From Phycisphaerae bacterium (lineage in GTDB: Bacteria; Planctomycetota; Phycisphaerae; Sedimentisphaerales; Anaerobacaceae): a stretch of 64,000 nt of DNA. A program made the translations under genes and the position numbers. The stretch lies in NCBI GenBank assembly GCA_012744475.1, contig JAAYBV010000067.1, forward strand, positions 186,001 to 250,000, written 5' to 3'. The notes below the pieces were generated by a model. It had not been told where the DNA came from and made no database searches. It saw nothing but the letters and a program-made list of their open reading frames with translations. Positions 6,624-56,408 of this stretch are shown here, piece after piece (within the stretch, counting starts at the first letter, position 1; the number at the start of each line of letters is the position of its first letter).

Positions 6624-8003
6624 TCAATCGTGCCGCAGGGCAACCACCGGGTCGACATGGGCGGCGCGCCGCGTGGGATAGATGCCCGCGATCAGACTGA
6701 CCAGCACCGAGAAGCCAATGCCGCCCAGGCAGAGCCACCAAGGGAAGCTGAAGTACTGGATGAAGGGCACGCCCTCCCGTGCGGTGAAGCCATTGACGAC
6801 CTGATTGATGACGAAGCTCACCACCCACGCCAGCGCCAGGCCGAACGCGCCGCCCAGAAGGCCGATCATTCCCGACTCAAAGAGGAAGATCCTCTGCACG
6901 TCGCCGTCGGTCGCCCCAACGGCCTTCATGACGCCGATCTCACGATAGCGTTCGAGGATCGACATCACCATCGTGTTGACGATCCCCAGCGAGGCGACCG
7001 TGACGCCGATCATCCCCACCGCCAGCAGGAACATGTCCACGATGATGAAGCCCTTTTGCATCTCCTCCAACTGGTCCATCAGAGCAAAGGTCCGCAGCCC
7101 GCGTTCTTCGAGCTTCGCCTCGACCGTCGCCACCTGCGAGGGCGAGGCAACTCGGACGGTCACCGTCGAATAACCGGCCATCTGCTCGGCGGGCTGGAAG
7201 AGATCGGATACACCCGTCAACACCAGCTTGCGCATTCGACCGGCAGCGCCGGGAGGAATGCACGCGTCGCTGCGGATCGGCATCGGCCCGCCAAACCCCA
7301 TTCGCTCGATCACGCCGACAATGGTGAACGTGTATCGCTGATCGGAAATGGGCAGGCGCTGGTCGCCTCGGGCGAACGCCATCCGCATCAGGCTGGCAAG
7401 GCTGAAGTCCAAGATGATGGTGCGGATTTCAACCTTCTGACCGACGGCGGTCTCGGGCTTCGTGTTGCCCAGGCGCCGCAACAGCGAATCGCTGATCATC
7501 ATTTCGTTCGGATCATCGCTGGCGTACGGCTGCCCCGCTCGCAACTGAATCAGCCCCGACCGGCACGCCTTGGCCGTCACGACCTGGATGAAGGTGAACC
7601 GGTCCTCTTTGCCCAGCCCTACCTGGGCGGGGAAACGCATCTCGGGAAAAGCGGCCTCCACACCCTCCATCTGCATCAGTCCGTCGATGAACTTGTCGTC
7701 CAGCACCGTGACCGGCTTGTTAGGCTCGCCGGCCGGCACTGCATCAGAATAGGTCTCGGGCGCATCAGGGTCAAATTCGGCGGGCTCGGGCTGCCTGCCG
7801 TGTCTCGGGGAGACGTTGATATAGTTCAACAGGTCCATCTCGTCGAACTGGTCGCGGATGTTCCGCTGAACGCCTTGCCCGAAGGCAAACATGCAGACGA
7901 GAGCCCCGATACCGATCACGACGCCGCCGGTGGTCAGAAACGTGCGCAGTTTCTTCTTCCACAGATTCGTCCAGGCCTGCTCGATATAGTCCGACGTTCT
8001 CAT
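6624..8003 (-). CDS. MacB/LolC-like ABC transporter permease
   Basis: A 459-aa permease of the FtsX/MacB superfamily. One membrane helix follows the N-terminal amphipathic segment (about 17-42). A large extracytoplasmic MacB_PCD-type domain spans roughly 45-325. Three further helices form the FtsX domain (about 330-455), with the typical EIGVMKAVGA coupling segment between them. These proteins act as mechanotransmitters that export or lift lipoproteins, peptides or antibiotics using a partner ATPase. That partner is the overlapping gene just upstream: its stop and this ATG share the sequence ATGA. The operon order is phosphodiesterase-like, ATPase, permease. The C terminus ends ALRHD, as in many MacB proteins. 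Confidence 0.92.
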   Translation of the reverse strand: MRTSDYIEQAWTNLWKKKLRTFLTTGGVVIGIGALVCMFAFGQGVQRNIRDQFDEMDLLNYINVSPRHGRQPEPAEFDPDAPETYSDAVPAGEPNKPVTVLDDKFIDGLMQMEGVEAAFPEMRFPAQVGLGKEDRFTFIQVVTAKACRSGLIQLRAGQPYASDDPNEMMISDSLLRRLGNTKPETAVGQKVEIRTIILDFSLASLMRMAFARGDQRLPISDQRYTFTIVGVIERMGFGGPMPIRSDACIPPGAAGRMRKLVLTGVSDLFQPAEQMAGYSTVTVRVASPSQVATVEAKLEERGLRTFALMDQLEEMQKGFIIVDMFLLAVGMIGVTVASLGIVNTMVMSILERYREIGVMKAVGATDGDVQRIFLFESGMIGLLGGAFGLALAWVVSFVINQVVNGFTAREGVPFIQYFSFPWWLCLGGIGFSVLVSLIAGIYPTRRAAHVDPVVALRHD

Positions 8004-8707
8004 GGTCCGTCCCTCACGACCTCCTGCGAGACGACCGCGCCGTCCTGGAGATACACCATCCTGTCGGCAAACTCGCGAAGCAGAGCCTCCTCGTGGGAGA
8101 TCATCACGATGGTCAGCCTCCGCTCGGCCCTCAGGTTGGCCAGGAGGCGCACGATCTGCTCCGAGGTCTTGCTGTCGAGATTGCCCGTGGGCTCGTCGGC
8201 CAACAGGATTTGCGGCTGATTCGCCAACGCCCGCGCTATGGCGACTCGCTGCTGCTCACCTCCGGACAGTTCGGTGGGCCGGTGGTTCAGGCGCGCGCCG
8301 AGGTCGACCAGGTTCAGAAGCTCGGCCGCACGGCGCGCTCGCTCCTTCTTGGCAACGCCGGCAAACAGCAGCGGAAACGCGACATTCTCCAGGGCGGAAT
8401 ACGAAGCGACCAGGTTGAACGACTGGAAGATCATGCCGACCGTGTGGCGGCGAAACAACGCCAGCTCCGCCTTGCTCAGATCGGAAATCCGTCGACCGTC
8501 GACACGGATGCTGCCCGACGAAGGCGTGTCCAGGCCGCCGAGGAGGTTCATCAGTGTGGACTTGCCGCTGCCGGAGGTCCCTGTCACGCCCACGAACTGA
8601 CCGCGATCCACTGAGAGCGTCGCGTTGCGCAGCGCGACCACCTCGACCGAGCCTAAGGAGTAGACCTTGGTCAAATCCTGCACCTGGATGAAACCGTCAC
8701 CGTCCAT
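8000..8707 (-). CDS. MacB/LolD-like ABC transporter ATP-binding protein
   Basis: A 235-aa ATPase with Walker A GTSGSGKST, Q-loop MIFQSFN, signature LSGGEQQR, Walker B ILLADEPTGNLD and H-loop MISHEE. The EPTGNLD string is characteristic of the LolD/MacB/FtsE subfamily. It energises the adjacent FtsX-type permease. I chose the ATG at 8707, which overlaps the last codons of the upstream phosphodiesterase-like gene (stop at 8697) and places the first strand FIQVQDL at residue 6. Longer upstream reading frames have no domain sense. The 4-base overlap with the permease implies translational coupling. Confidence 0.93.
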   Translation of the reverse strand: MDGDGFIQVQDLTKVYSLGSVEVVALRNATLSVDRGQFVGVTGTSGSGKSTLMNLLGGLDTPSSGSIRVDGRRISDLSKAELALFRRHTVGMIFQSFNLVASYSALENVAFPLLFAGVAKKERARRAAELLNLVDLGARLNHRPTELSGGEQQRVAIARALANQPQILLADEPTGNLDSKTSEQIVRLLANLRAERRLTIVMISHEEALLREFADRMVYLQDGAVVSQEVVRDGP

Positions 8708-9497
8708 GAGCCAGCAGGAACGCCTGCAATCCCTCCAGATCGTCCGTGTTGAGCAGGTCCACACCCGCCACAAGAAGGTGCCGCCAGAGGGCGTCCCGCG
8801 CGGGCGAGCGAACCTCCGGCGTCGCCCAGAACCGCACGAGCCGGCTGTTTTCGTGGGCAGCTTGAACAATATGTTCGAGCTTCTGCGCCTCCGCATCGGG
8901 CATCGGGCCCTCGCCCCTCCACGTGAAATGGCTGAGCCACCGATCGCTGATCAGCGGGATCAGGCCAGCGGGCGCATCAGAATCCAAGTCGGTCAGGCGG
9001 CCGTCGCAGCCGGCGTACCGGGTCTCCTGAGACCGCATCAGCTCGAAGGGGCGATTGCCCGAGACAACCACGAGGACCGCCTTGTCCTCGCGTCCCTCCG
9101 GCCCGAAGCTCGTCATGAGATCACGGTATTCCGCAAGGGTCTCATGCAACCTCAGGTAGGTCGGCTCAGCGGCCGACTTGAGATCGATCAACAGGAGAAA
9201 CCGTGTGTGGCCGGGGTAGATCCGCCCACCGTTCCGCCTGGTCCGCTCCCGCAGCGGATCGAGATAGAGCGATCGCAGCGTGCGTTCCGGCCGGATCTCG
9301 CGGGCCTCATGAGCGACGCACAACTGGTCGCCGACCAGGAAGACATCGGCCTCCACGCTGGTGAAGCCGTGCGCGAGCGCATCGAAGAGCGGTCGCTCGT
9401 GCAGGTAATCGTTGTGCGCGTGGGCCTGCGCCAAAGGGGTGACGTTCGCCTGTGTCAGCACGACGGTCATCACAACAATGGACAGACCTGTAATCAT
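8697..9497 (-). CDS. exported PI-PLC/glycerophosphodiesterase-like protein
   Basis: A 266-aa protein with an N-terminal signal peptide (about residues 1-18). It then has the motif HAHNDYLHERPLFDAL, followed by SVEADVFLV and LLIDLK, the metal-binding E-x-D and catalytic layout of the TIM-barrel PI-PLC-like/GDPD superfamily (AIM6-like branch). Near the C terminus, VRFWATPE and GVDLLNTDDL fit the last barrel strands. It probably hydrolyses a phosphodiester outside the cytoplasm, but the substrate is unknown. The ATG at 9497 follows AAGGGG. The gene overlaps the ABC ATPase start by 11 bases, so it is the first cistron of a three-gene operon with a MacB-type exporter. Confidence 0.8.
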   Translation of the reverse strand: MITGLSIVVMTVVLTQANVTPLAQAHAHNDYLHERPLFDALAHGFTSVEADVFLVGDQLCVAHEAREIRPERTLRSLYLDPLRERTRRNGGRIYPGHTRFLLLIDLKSAAEPTYLRLHETLAEYRDLMTSFGPEGREDKAVLVVVSGNRPFELMRSQETRYAGCDGRLTDLDSDAPAGLIPLISDRWLSHFTWRGEGPMPDAEAQKLEHIVQAAHENSRLVRFWATPEVRSPARDALWRHLLVAGVDLLNTDDLEGLQAFLLAHGR

Positions 9498-51912: not shown

Positions 51913-53388
51913 TTATTTCTTCGGCAGACGAAGCATCAGTAACCTTGTCCAGTCCTCGTCCCGGACTCGAAGAAGGGCACGCCCATCTGCCGCTGCGTTG
52001 TCAATGGCTTCATTAAACTCTTGTACGTTGCGGACGGGCTTTCTGTTCACTTCCGTGATCAGGGTGCCCGCTTGAATACCGGCCTCGCCGGCCGGCGATC
52101 CGGGCCGGACCTCCATTACCAACACGCCCGAGAGGTCCTCGTAACCCAAGCGGGAAGCCAGCTCCTCCGTCAACGTTTGGAGCGTCATCCCGAGGCTCTC
52201 CTGGACGGCCTGGCTGCCTCCACCCATCGCGAATTCGCCATCCGGACGCTTCTCAAGCGTCACAGTCAACGGCTTGCGTTTGCCGTCACGAATCACCACA
52301 ATCCGAACCTCGCTGCCCGGCTTGTACATGGCCACACGGTTACGGAACTCGTTCCAGTCGGAGACCGGCTGGCCCTCCAGTTCAACGACCACGTCGTCCT
52401 GCTTGACTCCGGCTTTGTCGGCCGGAGAATCCTCCACCACGCTGACGATCACCACACCCTTGTCGGTGTCCAGTCCGAAGTACTCTCCCATGCCGGGCTT
52501 GACATCGTCGCCTTGCACGCCGAGAAAACCACGCACCACTGCCCCGCTCTCCTTGAGCTGCGTGTAGATGTCCCTGGCCATGTTGCTGGGGATCGCCAGT
52601 CCGATGCCCACGTTCCCGCCCGGCCCGATGATCGCCGTGTTGATGCCCACCGCCTTGCCGTCCAGGTTCAGGAGGGGACCGCCCGAGTTGCCGAAGTTGA
52701 TCGCCGCATCGGTCTGGATGAAGTTCTCATAGCTGGCAATGCGCAGGCCGCTCCGTCCGGTGGCGCTGACGATTCCCGCCGTAACGGTGTGGCTCAGGCC
52801 GAACGGATTGCCGATGGCAATCACCCACTCGCCCACTTCCAGCGTGTCCGAGTTCGCCAGCTCGATGTAGGGAAGGTCGGCCTTGTCGATCTTCACAACC
52901 GCCACGTCTGTTTCAGGATCGGCGCCGACGATCTCGGCGTCCACCTTCTGGCCGTCCGCCAACTGCACGGTGACCTTCTCGGCCCCCCCCACCATGTGGT
53001 TGTTCGTCAGAATATATCCGTCGGAAGAGATGATGAAACCGGACCCCTGCGCCACCTGCCGGGATTCCGGCTCCTGTCGTTCCCGCTGGTAACGACGCGG
53101 GCCGAAGAAGTACTTGAACAACTCGTCTTCAAACGGGTTGGATGGGTCGGTAGACCAGTCCCGCGAAGAGCTGCCACGAACGGCCTTGGTGGCCTGGACC
53201 CCCACGACCGCGGGCGAGGCCTTCTCGGCGATCGAGGCAAACGCCTTGCCCATCTGTTTCAAGGTGACGATGCTCTGACTATCCTGGGCGAAAGCCGACA
53301 GCGGTATCAGCAACAGCCAGATCACACCGATAGCTGATGCGCTGGCGAGGGTGTTCTTTCGAGCTGTACGAACCACACGTGTTACCAT
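51913..53388 (-). CDS. DegP/HtrA-family periplasmic serine protease with two PDZ domains
   Basis: A 491-aa exported protease of the Do/DegQ type. A signal peptide runs to about 35 (LSAFAQ). The trypsin-like domain has a complete triad: His131 in TNNHMVG, Asp161 in PETDVAVV and Ser235 in NFGNSGGPL. The first PDZ lies at about 275-370 and the second at about 390-490. The domain degrades misfolded envelope proteins and in some bacteria starts anti-sigma cleavage. The ATG at 53388 follows GGAGG. It is divergent from an ECF sigma gene with 287 bases between starts and has its own promoter and terminator. Confidence 0.95.
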   Translation of the reverse strand: MVTRVVRTARKNTLASASAIGVIWLLLIPLSAFAQDSQSIVTLKQMGKAFASIAEKASPAVVGVQATKAVRGSSSRDWSTDPSNPFEDELFKYFFGPRRYQRERQEPESRQVAQGSGFIISSDGYILTNNHMVGGAEKVTVQLADGQKVDAEIVGADPETDVAVVKIDKADLPYIELANSDTLEVGEWVIAIGNPFGLSHTVTAGIVSATGRSGLRIASYENFIQTDAAINFGNSGGPLLNLDGKAVGINTAIIGPGGNVGIGLAIPSNMARDIYTQLKESGAVVRGFLGVQGDDVKPGMGEYFGLDTDKGVVIVSVVEDSPADKAGVKQDDVVVELEGQPVSDWNEFRNRVAMYKPGSEVRIVVIRDGKRKPLTVTLEKRPDGEFAMGGGSQAVQESLGMTLQTLTEELASRLGYEDLSGVLVMEVRPGSPAGEAGIQAGTLITEVNRKPVRNVQEFNEAIDNAAADGRALLRVRDEDWTRLLMLRLPKK

Positions 53389-53479
53389 AGTTGACCTCCA
53401 GACATTTCCGTCAAAAAGAACGCTTGGCCAAGCTCTCATACCACCATCATAAACATCCGCTTGGGTAGGGGTTTATACG

Positions 53480-53509
53480 ATTGTAGGCAGGGTTAGTTCG
53501 GGCCGTCAA
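53480..53509 (-). promoter_or_regulatory. promoter of the HtrA gene
   Basis: On the minus strand TTGACG (53509-53504) and TACAAT (53485-53480) are separated by 18 bases, about 92 bases before the HtrA start. This fits the housekeeping consensus. Confidence 0.6.
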
Positions 53510-53614
53510 ACCCTTTTTCGCCGGCCGGCGGGGCCGTTCCTGCCGCATCGGACCATCGGCGATTCGTCGACGGTCAGACCGCGTGCGGCGATGTTGCGGC
53601 CGGTGCAATTCTAT

Positions 53615-53643
53615 GGAACTCCGACGCCGCTCGATTGTATAAC
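53615..53643 (+). promoter_or_regulatory. candidate ECF-type promoter of the sigma operon
   Basis: GGAACT (53615-53620) and TATAAC (53638-53643) are 17 bases apart, 33 bases before the sigma start. The GGAAC -35 is the classic ECF element, so the operon may be self-regulated. Confidence 0.4.
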
Positions 53644-53675
53644 TGGGCAAAAAGAGGCCTCGATACATCGGGAAT

Positions 53676-54218
53676 ATGACGGACGAACCTCACATCATCC
53701 AGCGTGTTCTGGACGGCGACGCGGAGTCGTTCCGGCTTCTCGTCGAACGCTACGCCGGACCCGTCGTCGGCATGATCCGAAACGTCACCGGCGACGCGCG
53801 GGACTGTGAGGACCTGGCCCAGGACGTGTTCCTGGCCGCCTTCGCCCGGCTCAAGACGTTCGATCCCGCGAGGAGCCGCTTCTCGACCTGGCTGCTGACC
53901 ATCGCACGAAACATGAGCATCAACCTGCTCAAGAAGAGGCGCTCGAGGGCTTCCGTCGAACCCCCGCAACCGCCCGACGACGAAGGACCGCTGGAGCGTG
54001 TCACGCGTCAGGAGGCCTTCGCCCGACTCGATGCGGCGCTTCGGTCCCTTCCGGATCGCCAGCGCCGGGCGTTGACCCTCGTCGAGTTCGAAGGACTGTC
54101 GTATGAGGAGGCCGCGGTGATCGAAGGGACACGAATCGGCACCATCAAGTCAAGGGTCAGCCGCGCCAAGGCCGCCCTCGGCGAAGTACTGCGAGCCTGT
54201 CACGAGGATGACAAATGA
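53676..54218 (+). CDS. ECF RNA polymerase sigma factor
   Basis: A 180-aa sigma-70 family regulator. Region 2 (about 10-80) has ESFRLLVERYAGPVVGMI, DCEDLAQDVFLAAFARL and FSTWLLTIARN. Region 4 (about 115-175) has LPDRQRRALTLVEFEGLSYE and a helix-turn-helix ending IGTIKSRVSRAKAAL. This is a typical RpoE-like ECF sigma. Its stop overlaps the next small membrane-protein gene by 4 bases, the usual arrangement for a sigma/anti-sigma pair. It diverges from the HtrA gene. Confidence 0.95.
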   Translation: MTDEPHIIQRVLDGDAESFRLLVERYAGPVVGMIRNVTGDARDCEDLAQDVFLAAFARLKTFDPARSRFSTWLLTIARNMSINLLKKRRSRASVEPPQPPDDEGPLERVTRQEAFARLDAALRSLPDRQRRALTLVEFEGLSYEEAAVIEGTRIGTIKSRVSRAKAALGEVLRACHEDDK

Positions 54219-54469
54219 AGCACGAAGAACTCTATAGCGAATGGGTGCGGCAGCGTAGAAACATCTGTCTTGGCGAGGATTTCACACAGGACGTGATGAA
54301 CCGCGTCCACCGGCTCAAGGCCGACCAGGACAGGCGCCGGCTCACATGGTCGCGCATCGTGGACCGGGTCGGCTACTCGTCGTGGGCTCAGGCGGCCGCC
54401 GTCGCCATGGCGGCGCTGCTCGGACTCGGACGAATCCTGCTGACACTACGTCTGCTGCTGTTTGCCTGA
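54215..54469 (+). CDS. small membrane protein, candidate anti-sigma factor
   Basis: An 84-aa protein overlapping the sigma stop as ATGA. A cytoplasmic basic and acidic segment (about 1-55) precedes one hydrophobic stretch (about 58-83). It lacks the HCC zinc motif of ZAS-type anti-sigma factors. Position and topology suggest a minimal membrane-tethered inhibitor of the sigma factor, but no domain proves it. The C terminus ends inside the helix (RILLTLRLLLFA), leaving almost no extracytoplasmic part for a sensor. Confidence 0.6.
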   Translation: MKHEELYSEWVRQRRNICLGEDFTQDVMNRVHRLKADQDRRRLTWSRIVDRVGYSSWAQAAAVAMAALLGLGRILLTLRLLLFA

Positions 54470-54485
54470 CGACCTGGAGGATACC

Positions 54486-55427
54486 ATGACTGAACACGTG
54501 ACATCCAAGAACACCAGACGACACGCATGGCTCGCCGTCGGCCTGTCGATCCTCATGCCCGGCGTGGGACACGCCTATTGCGGCAAGCTGTGGCGCGGTT
54601 TGGTCTTCGGCCTGCTCTATGCGATTGGCATTCCCGTCGTTCTCGGATTTCTCGCGTACGCCAGCCCTGCCTCGACAGTCACGTTCGGTTTGCTGATGGC
54701 TCTGGCGGCATTCGGCGTGGTGATCGGCGCAGCGGTCGATTCGTGTCGGCTGGCACGCCGGACCCGCAGCGACTACGAACTGAAGGCATACAACGGTCCG
54801 GGCATCTCCGTCCTGCTCGGCCTGTTGATCCAGGGCAGTTGTCTCGGGTACGCGTTGCACGTCCGCAGCACCCTGTTCCAGGCCTTCCGCGTCCCCAGCA
54901 TGTCGGAATTTCCCACCATCGTTCCGAACGACCGCCTTCTCGTGGACCGGAACGCCTATCGAAAGGCCGATCCCCAGCGTGGCGACACCATCCTGTTCCG
55001 TCCCCCGAACGAGGACTGGCGAACCTACTACATCAAGCGTATCGTCGCCCTCGAAGGAGACACCGTCGCGATCAAGGACGGAACGCTCTACGTCAATGGC
55101 GAAAAGCTCGCAGTGGGCAAGGCCATGAAGCCGCCGTCAGCCGGACGTGTGACAGAGGACGGCCGCACGCTCCAGGGCGAGTTCTTCGAAGAAACCAACG
55201 CAAGTGCCCGCTACACGATCTTCCTGTCGACGTCCGAGCAGAATGCCGTCCGCGACTTGCCCGAGACCGTCGTGCCGCAGCAGCACTGCTTCGTGCTGGG
55301 TGACAATCGGAACCGGTCGAGAGACAGCCGGCATTTCGGGCCGATCCCCTACGCCGTCATCGAGGGCCGAGCCGACTACATCTATTGGCCCGCCGATCAA
55401 TGGTCGCGTTTCGGACGGATTCATTGA
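54486..55427 (+). CDS. signal peptidase I with non-canonical serine box
   Basis: A 313-aa membrane protease. An N-terminal region of three to four helices (about 12-85) precedes the peptidase domain. The serine box is RVPSMSEFPTI instead of the usual PSxSMxPT: Ser140 aligns with the nucleophile, but Glu141 replaces the conserved Met. The general base Lys184 lies in YYIKRIVALEGD. The third box GDNRNRSRDSRHFG (about 272-285) is intact. It would cleave signal peptides at the outer face of the membrane. The ATG follows GGAGG and sits 16 bases after the small membrane gene, in the ECF operon. Confidence 0.88.
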   Translation: MTEHVTSKNTRRHAWLAVGLSILMPGVGHAYCGKLWRGLVFGLLYAIGIPVVLGFLAYASPASTVTFGLLMALAAFGVVIGAAVDSCRLARRTRSDYELKAYNGPGISVLLGLLIQGSCLGYALHVRSTLFQAFRVPSMSEFPTIVPNDRLLVDRNAYRKADPQRGDTILFRPPNEDWRTYYIKRIVALEGDTVAIKDGTLYVNGEKLAVGKAMKPPSAGRVTEDGRTLQGEFFEETNASARYTIFLSTSEQNAVRDLPETVVPQQHCFVLGDNRNRSRDSRHFGPIPYAVIEGRADYIYWPADQWSRFGRIH

Positions 55428-55496
55428 TCTGGCCGTCCTGTCAACCCCATCTTTTCCTCCTGAGCGGCCTCCTGCCCTCGCACGTGGAGATTCCCA

Positions 55497-56408
55497 GTGA
55501 TTGAATCGGACGGCACAACAAGCAAGACAGACAGAAGACTCTGCTGGGTTCATATGACAGCCTCTTACGGCATGAGAAAGAGGAGATGGGTGGTCGCGGC
55601 AGTCGCGGTCGCAGCGCTTGCCCTGTTTGGTGTCTACGAGCTGCTGTTTGGCCGGCTGTTTCCGTTCTCTCCGGTCGTAGCCGGGTTTTCCCGACAGGAG
55701 TATGAGAGTTTCATCGTGTACCATCACGGGCAGCCGGAATCATCCCAGCTATCCTATTTGAGCGACGTCGTTGCTATCGAAGAAGACTACCACGGGATGC
55801 CATTCCGGTCGGAGCCGGAGATATTCCTTTGTAGGGACGATCGCGAATACCACAGGCTTACCGGTGGAAGGGCTCGGTTCATTGCGATCAATGGACGGCT
55901 GTTCGTGTCCAAGCGAGCACAGGATGATGCAAGACAGGGCCGGATCGATCTCCGGACGTATCTGACCCATGAGATGTCGCATTGCCTTCTGCAACAGCAC
56001 ATGTCGATTCTGAGATCCCTGAAGGTGCCAAGGTGGCTGCTCGAAGGAACCGCCATGGATTGTGCCGGACAGGTGGGAGTTGGAATCTACCCGGACAGAT
56101 CGAGAGTGTACGACGCGGTAGCTCGGGGCGTGTTCTGTGAGCCGGCGGACTTTGGTACGGTTCTCGACGGCGAAAAAGGGACGGCGCTCTCCTGCCCGAT
56201 AGAGAACAGGACGGCATTCTTCTACTCGGAGTTCGGCTGTCTTGTGGAATTCCTGAGGTCGAGTCATGGAGCGCAGCGATATCAGGCTTTTCTCAAGGAC
56301 CTGGTCGAAAGCCGTACCCTGAACGTGGAGAAGTCGTTTGAAGAGGCCTATGGAACGACGCTCGGTGATGAGATCGCTCGATTCAAGAACGAGACGCAGA
56401 GGCGTTGA
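55497..56408 (+). CDS. membrane-anchored peptidase-MA-like metallopeptidase
   Basis: A 303-aa protein with one N-terminal helix (about 31-55) and an outer domain. The zinc motif HEMSH (158-162) with downstream Glu183 in WLLEGTAMD matches gluzincin/peptidase MA-like proteins. The closing region (FFYSEFGCLVEFLRSSHGAQ, then EAYGTTLGDE) is typical of that family. The GTG at 55497 follows TGGAG; ATGs at 55554 and 55572 are also possible and would leave a tighter signal. It follows the signal peptidase by 69 bases on the same strand. Substrate unknown. Confidence 0.8.
   Translation: MIESDGTTSKTDRRLCWVHMTASYGMRKRRWVVAAVAVAALALFGVYELLFGRLFPFSPVVAGFSRQEYESFIVYHHGQPESSQLSYLSDVVAIEEDYHGMPFRSEPEIFLCRDDREYHRLTGGRARFIAINGRLFVSKRAQDDARQGRIDLRTYLTHEMSHCLLQQHMSILRSLKVPRWLLEGTAMDCAGQVGVGIYPDRSRVYDAVARGVFCEPADFGTVLDGEKGTALSCPIENRTAFFYSEFGCLVEFLRSSHGAQRYQAFLKDLVESRTLNVEKSFEEAYGTTLGDEIARFKNETQRR

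Follow-up and report, generated by a model that had tools for sequence, protein, structure and literature searches.

The window analyzed here, a stretch of 64,000 nt from a Phycisphaerae bacterium (Planctomycetota, order Sedimentisphaerales) whose genome (G000) spans 5.75 Mb, includes a gene cluster centered on a putative extracytoplasmic function (ECF) sigma factor (Table 1). A first-pass annotation had described five open reading frames (ORFs) there: an htrA gene and, diverging from it, a run encoding the sigma factor, an 84-amino-acid (aa) membrane protein, a type I signal peptidase (SPase), and a protein with an HExxH motif. The ORF list and family profiles bear out all five, in the order and orientation it gave. 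The 4-base overlap (ATGA) of the 84-aa ORF with the sigma gene is likewise present; the PSMSEFPT protein is indeed a signal peptidase I, by family scores above the cut-offs; and the GGAACT/TATAAC site upstream of the sigma gene is real and conserved. The further proposal, that three extracytoplasmic proteases and a sigma factor form one envelope-stress unit, fares less well. The sigma, 84-aa, and SPase genes are almost certainly a recurrent three-gene operon with its own promoter; HtrA is an occasional neighbor, and the HExxH gene appears unrelated.

Table 1. Features of the locus, in window coordinates.
Feature	Coordinates	Strand	Details and basis
Operon promoter	53615..53643	+	-35 GGAACT 53615-53620, 16-bp spacer, -10 GTATAAC 53637-53643
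ECF sigma factor, 180 aa	53676..54218	+	Sigma70_r2 and r4_2, TIGR02937; orthologues
84-aa tail-anchored membrane protein, probable anti-sigma	54215..54469	+	Alignment, hydropathy, predicted helices
Signal peptidase I (S26), N-terminal multi-helix membrane domain	54486..55427	+	PF10502, TIGR02227; Ser140 54903-54905, Lys184 55035-55037
htrA promoter	53472..53500	-	CGAACT-N16-GTATAAA; conserved upstream of htrA in genomes with and without the trio
Do-type htrA with two PDZ stretches, optional neighbor	51913..53439	-	TIGR02037, PDZ_2
HExxH putative metallopeptidase, private to G000 in the sample	55497..56408	+	ORF; sub-threshold Peptidase_MA_2

Recurrence of the operon and its promoter

The sigma factor matches regions 2 and 4 (PF04542 and PF08281), with no match to region 3, and its TIGR02937 score (101.2 bits, cut-off 42.9) places it among the ECF sigma factors. 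It falls well short of the RpoE equivalog (TIGR02939, 97.5 bits against a cut-off of 236.15); the solved chains that it matches best include some labeled sigma-H, SigW, and sigma-E.

Gene order was compared at several scales, as the first-pass annotation had suggested: by single-sequence searches of 61 relatives (G000 and 60 others), by profile searches of 161 genomes of the order (E up to 1e-30 for the SPase and up to 0.01 for the small protein), and in 392 genomes sampled from the phylum. Gene order was scanned in 39 fetched loci plus the window, 40 in all. "Trio" here denotes an ECF sigma gene, a gene for an 84-aa-type small protein, and an SPase gene, in that order. Full-length SPase matches (E < 1e-60) were found in 13 of the 60 other relatives, 8 of which have the 84-aa gene immediately before the SPase gene, and the profiles for the SPase and for the small protein each matched in 37 of the 161 genomes. 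The trio is present in 35 of the 40 scanned loci, and whole in 30; the incomplete ones are G096 (sigma gene cut by the contig start), G127 and G089 (SPase gene cut by the contig end), and G131 and G160 (sigma gene disrupted). In G011, a contig edge leaves just the end of the small protein. The grouping of these three genes goes beyond chance; this is partly true of HtrA, and for the HExxH gene the claim is unsupported.

Spacing within the trio is tight. The sigma and small-protein genes overlap or are separated by at most 3 bases in 33 of the 34 loci measured, the exception being G160, where a stop inside the sigma gene leaves them 200 bases apart; a large overlap in G145 comes from a read-on frame. 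The interval from the small-protein gene to the SPase gene runs from -8 to 44 bases. The two disrupted sigma genes, one in two frames (G131, L232:5592-6027) and one with an in-frame stop (G160, L238:2447-2449), have both kept the promoter, and may reflect assembly errors or decay. At G120 (L241:7870-9638), which is not a trio locus, an ECF sigma gene overlaps one for a membrane protein of 413 aa with a weak N-terminal resemblance to the 84-aa protein; this may be a full-length relative with an outside domain. The G067 operon (L217) compares unevenly with that of G017 (sigma factor 84% identical, small protein 45%, SPase 66%), and its SPase falls in a different clade, so that parts of the operon may have been exchanged.

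Beyond the order, the trio was found at six distinct loci. Among 80 SPase loci matched, the 8 best all have it (five of these apparently the same records as loci of the order), while in the other 72, mostly from other phyla, no small-protein match was found. Two bearers are Pirellulales: a Rubripirellula metagenome-assembled genome (L084) and Neorhodopirellula pilleata Pla100 (L085), a named strain in culture. The remaining loci are L086, G524, G262, G259, and G267, of which L086 and G267 are apparently one record. In the 392-genome sample, four of the five other matching genomes (G524, G262, G259, and G267) have the trio, and in the fifth, G212, the SPase alone is visible in 12 kb. A plasmid search gave no match, and no printed description of a sigma-SPase operon in planctomycetes was found in the open-access library searched (titles, abstract openings, and passages).

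Promoters were scored in 35 regions upstream of the sigma gene (maximum 13, spacings of 14-18 tried). GGAACT-like and GTATAAC-like boxes lie exactly 16 bp apart in 34 of them, which are all 34 readable trio loci; the sole exception is G120. Scores are 13 in 17 regions, 12 in 13, 11 in three, 10 in one, and 8 in G120. Among 700 shuffled sequences (spacings 15-17), 50 scored 10, six scored 11, and none reached 12. Between the end of the site and the sigma start there are 27-48 bases, or 198 in the case of G088. In three loci of the f2 family (L077, L236, and L237, from G037, G157, and G158) the -35 box is GTAACG, with GTAACGTTT replacing GGAACTT, while the -10 core and the spacing are kept; sigma factor and promoter may have changed together here. 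By this conservation, GGAACT-N16-GTATAAC is very probably the operon promoter. Autoregulation of the operon by its own sigma factor is probable.

There are few candidates for other targets. The exact pattern GGAAC-N17-GTATAA occurs once in G000, at this operon; allowing up to one mismatch gives 21 matches, against 65 for a control pattern. In 24 genomes, the strict motif GAACY-N16-GTATAAM has 48 matches, of which 22 are at the sigma operon, 4 before htrA, and 22 elsewhere. These last are fewer than the 73 control matches and so give no sign of a wider regulon, although the strict motif is blind to weaker targets. Inspection of the next ORF at 17 loci with other motif matches found no recurrent gene. 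Three matches that share the extended -10 of the operon (G002 C1:4873232, G075 C1:927486, and G075 C1:3902277) are possible targets.

The small protein and the signal peptidase

The 35 small-protein orthologues in the order (a set without the fragmentary protein of G011 and the long one of G120) are 77-89 aa long, with one hydrophobic C-terminal helix. The most hydrophobic segment exceeds 1.6 on the Kyte-Doolittle scale in 34 of the 35, includes an Arg in all of them (Arg73 in the window protein), and has a median of 6 residues after it; Gly70 and Arg73 occur in every row of a 10-row alignment. The predicted structure, of middling confidence (mean predicted local distance difference test [pLDDT] 75.5), has helices at residues 3-15, 23-54, and 56-83. 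The window protein has no Pfam match. HxxxCxxC, the motif of zinc-binding (ZAS) anti-sigma factors, is found in none of the 35, which places these proteins outside that group. Over 29 loci, evolutionary distance of the small protein correlates better with that of the SPase (partial r 0.63) than with that of the sigma factor (0.43), although such correlations are affected by shared ancestry. Operon position, overlap with the sigma gene, membrane anchoring, and this distance correlation make the 84-aa protein a likely anti-sigma factor, one without a sensor of its own.

The SPase scores 4e-39 against PF10502 and 134.3 bits against TIGR02227 (cut-off 47), as expected for an S26 peptidase. A TTG at 54462 is a possible alternative to the ATG at 54486. 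The best Foldseek matches of its predicted structure (mean pLDDT 64, also middling) are to E. coli SPase I, with a TM-score of 0.39 on the query. The window protein keeps the catalytic dyad (Ser140 and Lys184). The residue after the Ser is Glu, where the solved E. coli chain has Met. To our knowledge, a Met at this position is near-universal in type I signal peptidases.

One possibility is that the SPase is a plain output: the sigma factor would sense export stress via the 84-aa protein, and raise the level of a spare SPase that clears blocked preproteins. The SPase gene is the last of an apparently autoregulated operon with few other predicted targets, and both Ser and Lys are retained in 33 of the 37 readable SPases of the order. 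G000 also has two more SPase-like genes (C23:13178-14236, which also matches the N-terminal membrane domain, and C112:22153-22368), which argues that the operon SPase is accessory. The active site nevertheless varies in ways that such a role would not predict, and we consider it rather unlikely. The residue after the Ser is Met in 17 of the 37, Asn in 11, Cys in four, Glu in three, and Leu and Val in one each (20 of 37 non-Met). Within the order, Ala takes the place of the Ser in both G011 and G061, Thr does so in G131, and Asn stands for the Lys in G067; on the SPase tree, these require four independent events. Outside it, the L084 protein has Asn for Ser and Ala for Lys, and that of N. pilleata (7950-8738) has Asp and Arg. 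The sigma factor and small protein are kept alongside at these loci, although in G011 just the last part of the small protein is visible, and G061, G067, and G131 have kept the operon promoter at 12-13 of 13. The GDNR...DSR box is mostly kept in L084 and L085, N. pilleata having GDNC; G011 has CDNR. A different change is seen in G015 (L076, SPase 8193-9125), where the dyad is kept and the last conserved box lacks its DSR stretch.

Selection on the altered proteins gives a mixed picture. Ratios of nonsynonymous to synonymous substitution rates are 0.13-0.18 for pairs with one altered SPase (G061-G094, G017-G067, and G131-G132), compared with 0.16-0.19 for intact pairs such as G097-G098 and G000-G002. 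In relative-rate comparisons, for which G061/G094 was the sole usable sister pair (G067 and G017, not sisters in the SPase tree, were not used), the G061 SPase has 27-37 unique changes and that of its intact sister 10-19 with each of four outgroups, pointing to looser constraint; the sigma factor has no steady bias. Drift and dyad loss are consistent with a role in which the fold matters more than catalysis, or with slow decay.

As another possibility, by analogy with known systems, the SPase might be a site-1 protease that cuts the 84-aa anti-sigma factor in or next to its membrane helix, to be followed by a site-2 protease. There is precedent for this in Bacillus: SipS and SipT of B. subtilis cut RsiV, and SipP of B. 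thuringiensis cuts RsiP, according to the available passages of one report (PMC8844934). A-x-A-like triplets are found in or near the helix in 32 of the 35 small proteins. The other three have none, the small protein is almost without an outside segment to be cut, and the operon persists where the dyad has changed; a site-1 role is improbable.

The reading we prefer, at about even odds, is that of a self-activating three-gene ECF switch with the SPase fold as its extracytoplasmic arm; opinion is just as balanced on whether the SPase is a sensing or triggering arm rather than a plain output. The cytoplasmic helices of the 84-aa protein would hold the sigma factor at the membrane. Since this protein has almost no outside part, its signal would come via a membrane partner, presumably the co-encoded SPase, whose cleft would meet exported preproteins or signal peptides. 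Occupancy of the cleft, with cleavage in some lineages and without it in others, would release the sigma factor, and this could then read GGAACT-N16-GTATAAC to give more of all three products in a positive loop. On this view, htrA stands apart as an envelope gene whose promoter is similar, and the HExxH gene is unrelated. In a more specific version, which is possible but tentative, the anti-sigma factor is split: the 84-aa stub would hold the sigma factor while the SPase fold reads the export load via its signal-peptide cleft, with catalysis dispensable and lost several times.

Besides the shared ancestry behind the distance correlations, the blindness of the strict motif, and the dyad retained in most of the order, several observations weigh against the switch. 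The excess of changes in the G061 SPase also fits decay. An SPase without this sigma factor occurs in three genomes (G010, where the SPase has an in-frame stop, G027, and G060). When the 10 aligned small proteins were compared with Pfam, five families had a match, each to a single member (best E 0.012), and none of these families supports an anti-sigma role. Outside the order, small-protein scores are weak (18-46 bits), the membrane Arg is missing in L084, and the tail is longer in L336. Promoter-like sites there are suggestive (L085, L342, and L343 score 10, all with a spacing of 16; L341 scores 11, with a spacing of 17; and L345 scores 8), yet scores of 8-11 are in the range that shuffled sequences reach (at least 10 in 56 of 700).

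HtrA and the HExxH gene

The HtrA protein scores 476.8 bits against TIGR02037 (cut-off 416.2) and has two PDZ_2 stretches, as in DegP/HtrA proteins of the Do type. From the sequence, an inner ATG at 53388 may be its start, which would give a plain signal peptide. The gene is divergent from the trio and adjacent to it in just four of the 35 trio loci (G000, G002, G003, and G016), lies about 1.2 kb away in G097, G098, and G101 (the gap in G097 holding one main ORF), and is roughly 6 kb distant in G075; several other contigs end too early for linkage to be judged. In G010, it is near an SPase gene without the sigma gene. In our judgment, which is not a computed one, this linkage exceeds expectation for a gene with mostly a single such copy per genome, yet is far from fixed.

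Upstream of htrA is a pattern, GAACY-N10-ANAATC-GTATAAA, with the same 16-bp spacing as the operon promoter. In a comparison of 30 of 53 HtrA matches, it scored at least 10 of 12 in seven of eight genomes with the trio (the eighth is cut by a contig end), in 16 of 20 without it, and in one of two with the SPase and no sigma factor; 59 of 1500 shuffles reach 10. The exact form GAAC-N14-ATCGTATAA has 13 matches in the 61 genomes, 10 of them upstream of htrA, including six from genomes that lack the trio; the control has one. Being equally common where the trio is absent, this is predicted to be a dedicated ECF-like promoter of htrA, independent of the sigma factor described here, and it was rejected as proof of a shared regulon. 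Cross-talk between the two promoters is possible, both having a GAAC-N17-GTATAA layout. The htrA-type pattern also precedes a gene for a 165-170-aa protein in two genomes of the f4 family (L334 in G048 and L335 in G044).

The HExxH ORF has a later EG.A stretch and a Peptidase_MA_2 score of 17.2 bits, below the cut-off of 32.4. No match to the protein was found in the 60 other relatives, and the sequence that follows 38 other SPase genes (up to 3.5 kb, with 0-2.4 kb available in several) showed no HExxH...E ORF; the gene was rejected as part of the unit on these grounds. The ORF at a weak tblastn stretch near the G022 SPase gene did not confirm that match. The position behind the SPase gene is occupied in G002 by an 82-aa ORF and a diacylglycerol-kinase-like gene, and in G003 by ORFs of the same sizes.

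These results bear on the unit first proposed, in which the HtrA, SPase, and HExxH proteases and the sigma factor would answer a shared envelope-stress signal. The nearby htrA genes speak for it, as do the -35 and -10 cores and spacing that the htrA promoter shares with the operon. A shared signal is not required to explain an htrA promoter conserved equally well where the operon is absent; the third protease is private to G000 in the sample; and the small protein is almost without an outside part for a DegS-like cut. We regard a three-protease unit as very improbable.

Comparison with known systems

In E. coli, RpoE is controlled by RseA together with DegS. The planctomycete sigma factor scores 98.6 bits against the RpoE chain (1or7), and its operon has a GGAACTT-type -35 box like that given for RpoE in the portion available of one source (PMC8103513). 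It differs from that system in its -10 (GTATAAC) and in falling below the RpoE equivalog cut-off; the HtrA protein differs from DegS in being Do-type, with two PDZ stretches, and usually unlinked.

The SigV-RsiV/SipS/SipT and SigP-RsiP/SipP systems are similar in joining an ECF sigma factor, a membrane anti-sigma factor, and an SPase in one pathway (PMC8844934). In the available passages of that report, SipP, given as HD73_4122, is not said to be linked to sigP-rsiP, nor are these anti-sigma-cutting SPases described as forming one operon with the sigma factor, whereas in the planctomycete operon the SPase gene comes third. RsiV binds lysozyme (same passages); the planctomycete small protein, in contrast, has almost no outside part.

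For the loss of the dyad, the closest parallel is SipA of Streptococcus pyogenes, described in the available portion of its report (PMC4049620) as an SPase fold with Ser and Lys replaced by Asp and Gly and the peptide cleft kept. The N. pilleata SPase also has Asp at the Ser site. SipA differs in serving pilus assembly, with no sigma factor, in that account. An SPase that acts on an anti-sigma factor and a dyad-less SPase fold thus each have precedent in the portions available of these two reports (PMC8844934, PMC4049620), and their combination in one operon looks new in the literature searched. With dyad-less SPases in several lineages, the Planctomycetota operon offers a direct test of the SPase fold as an export sensor.

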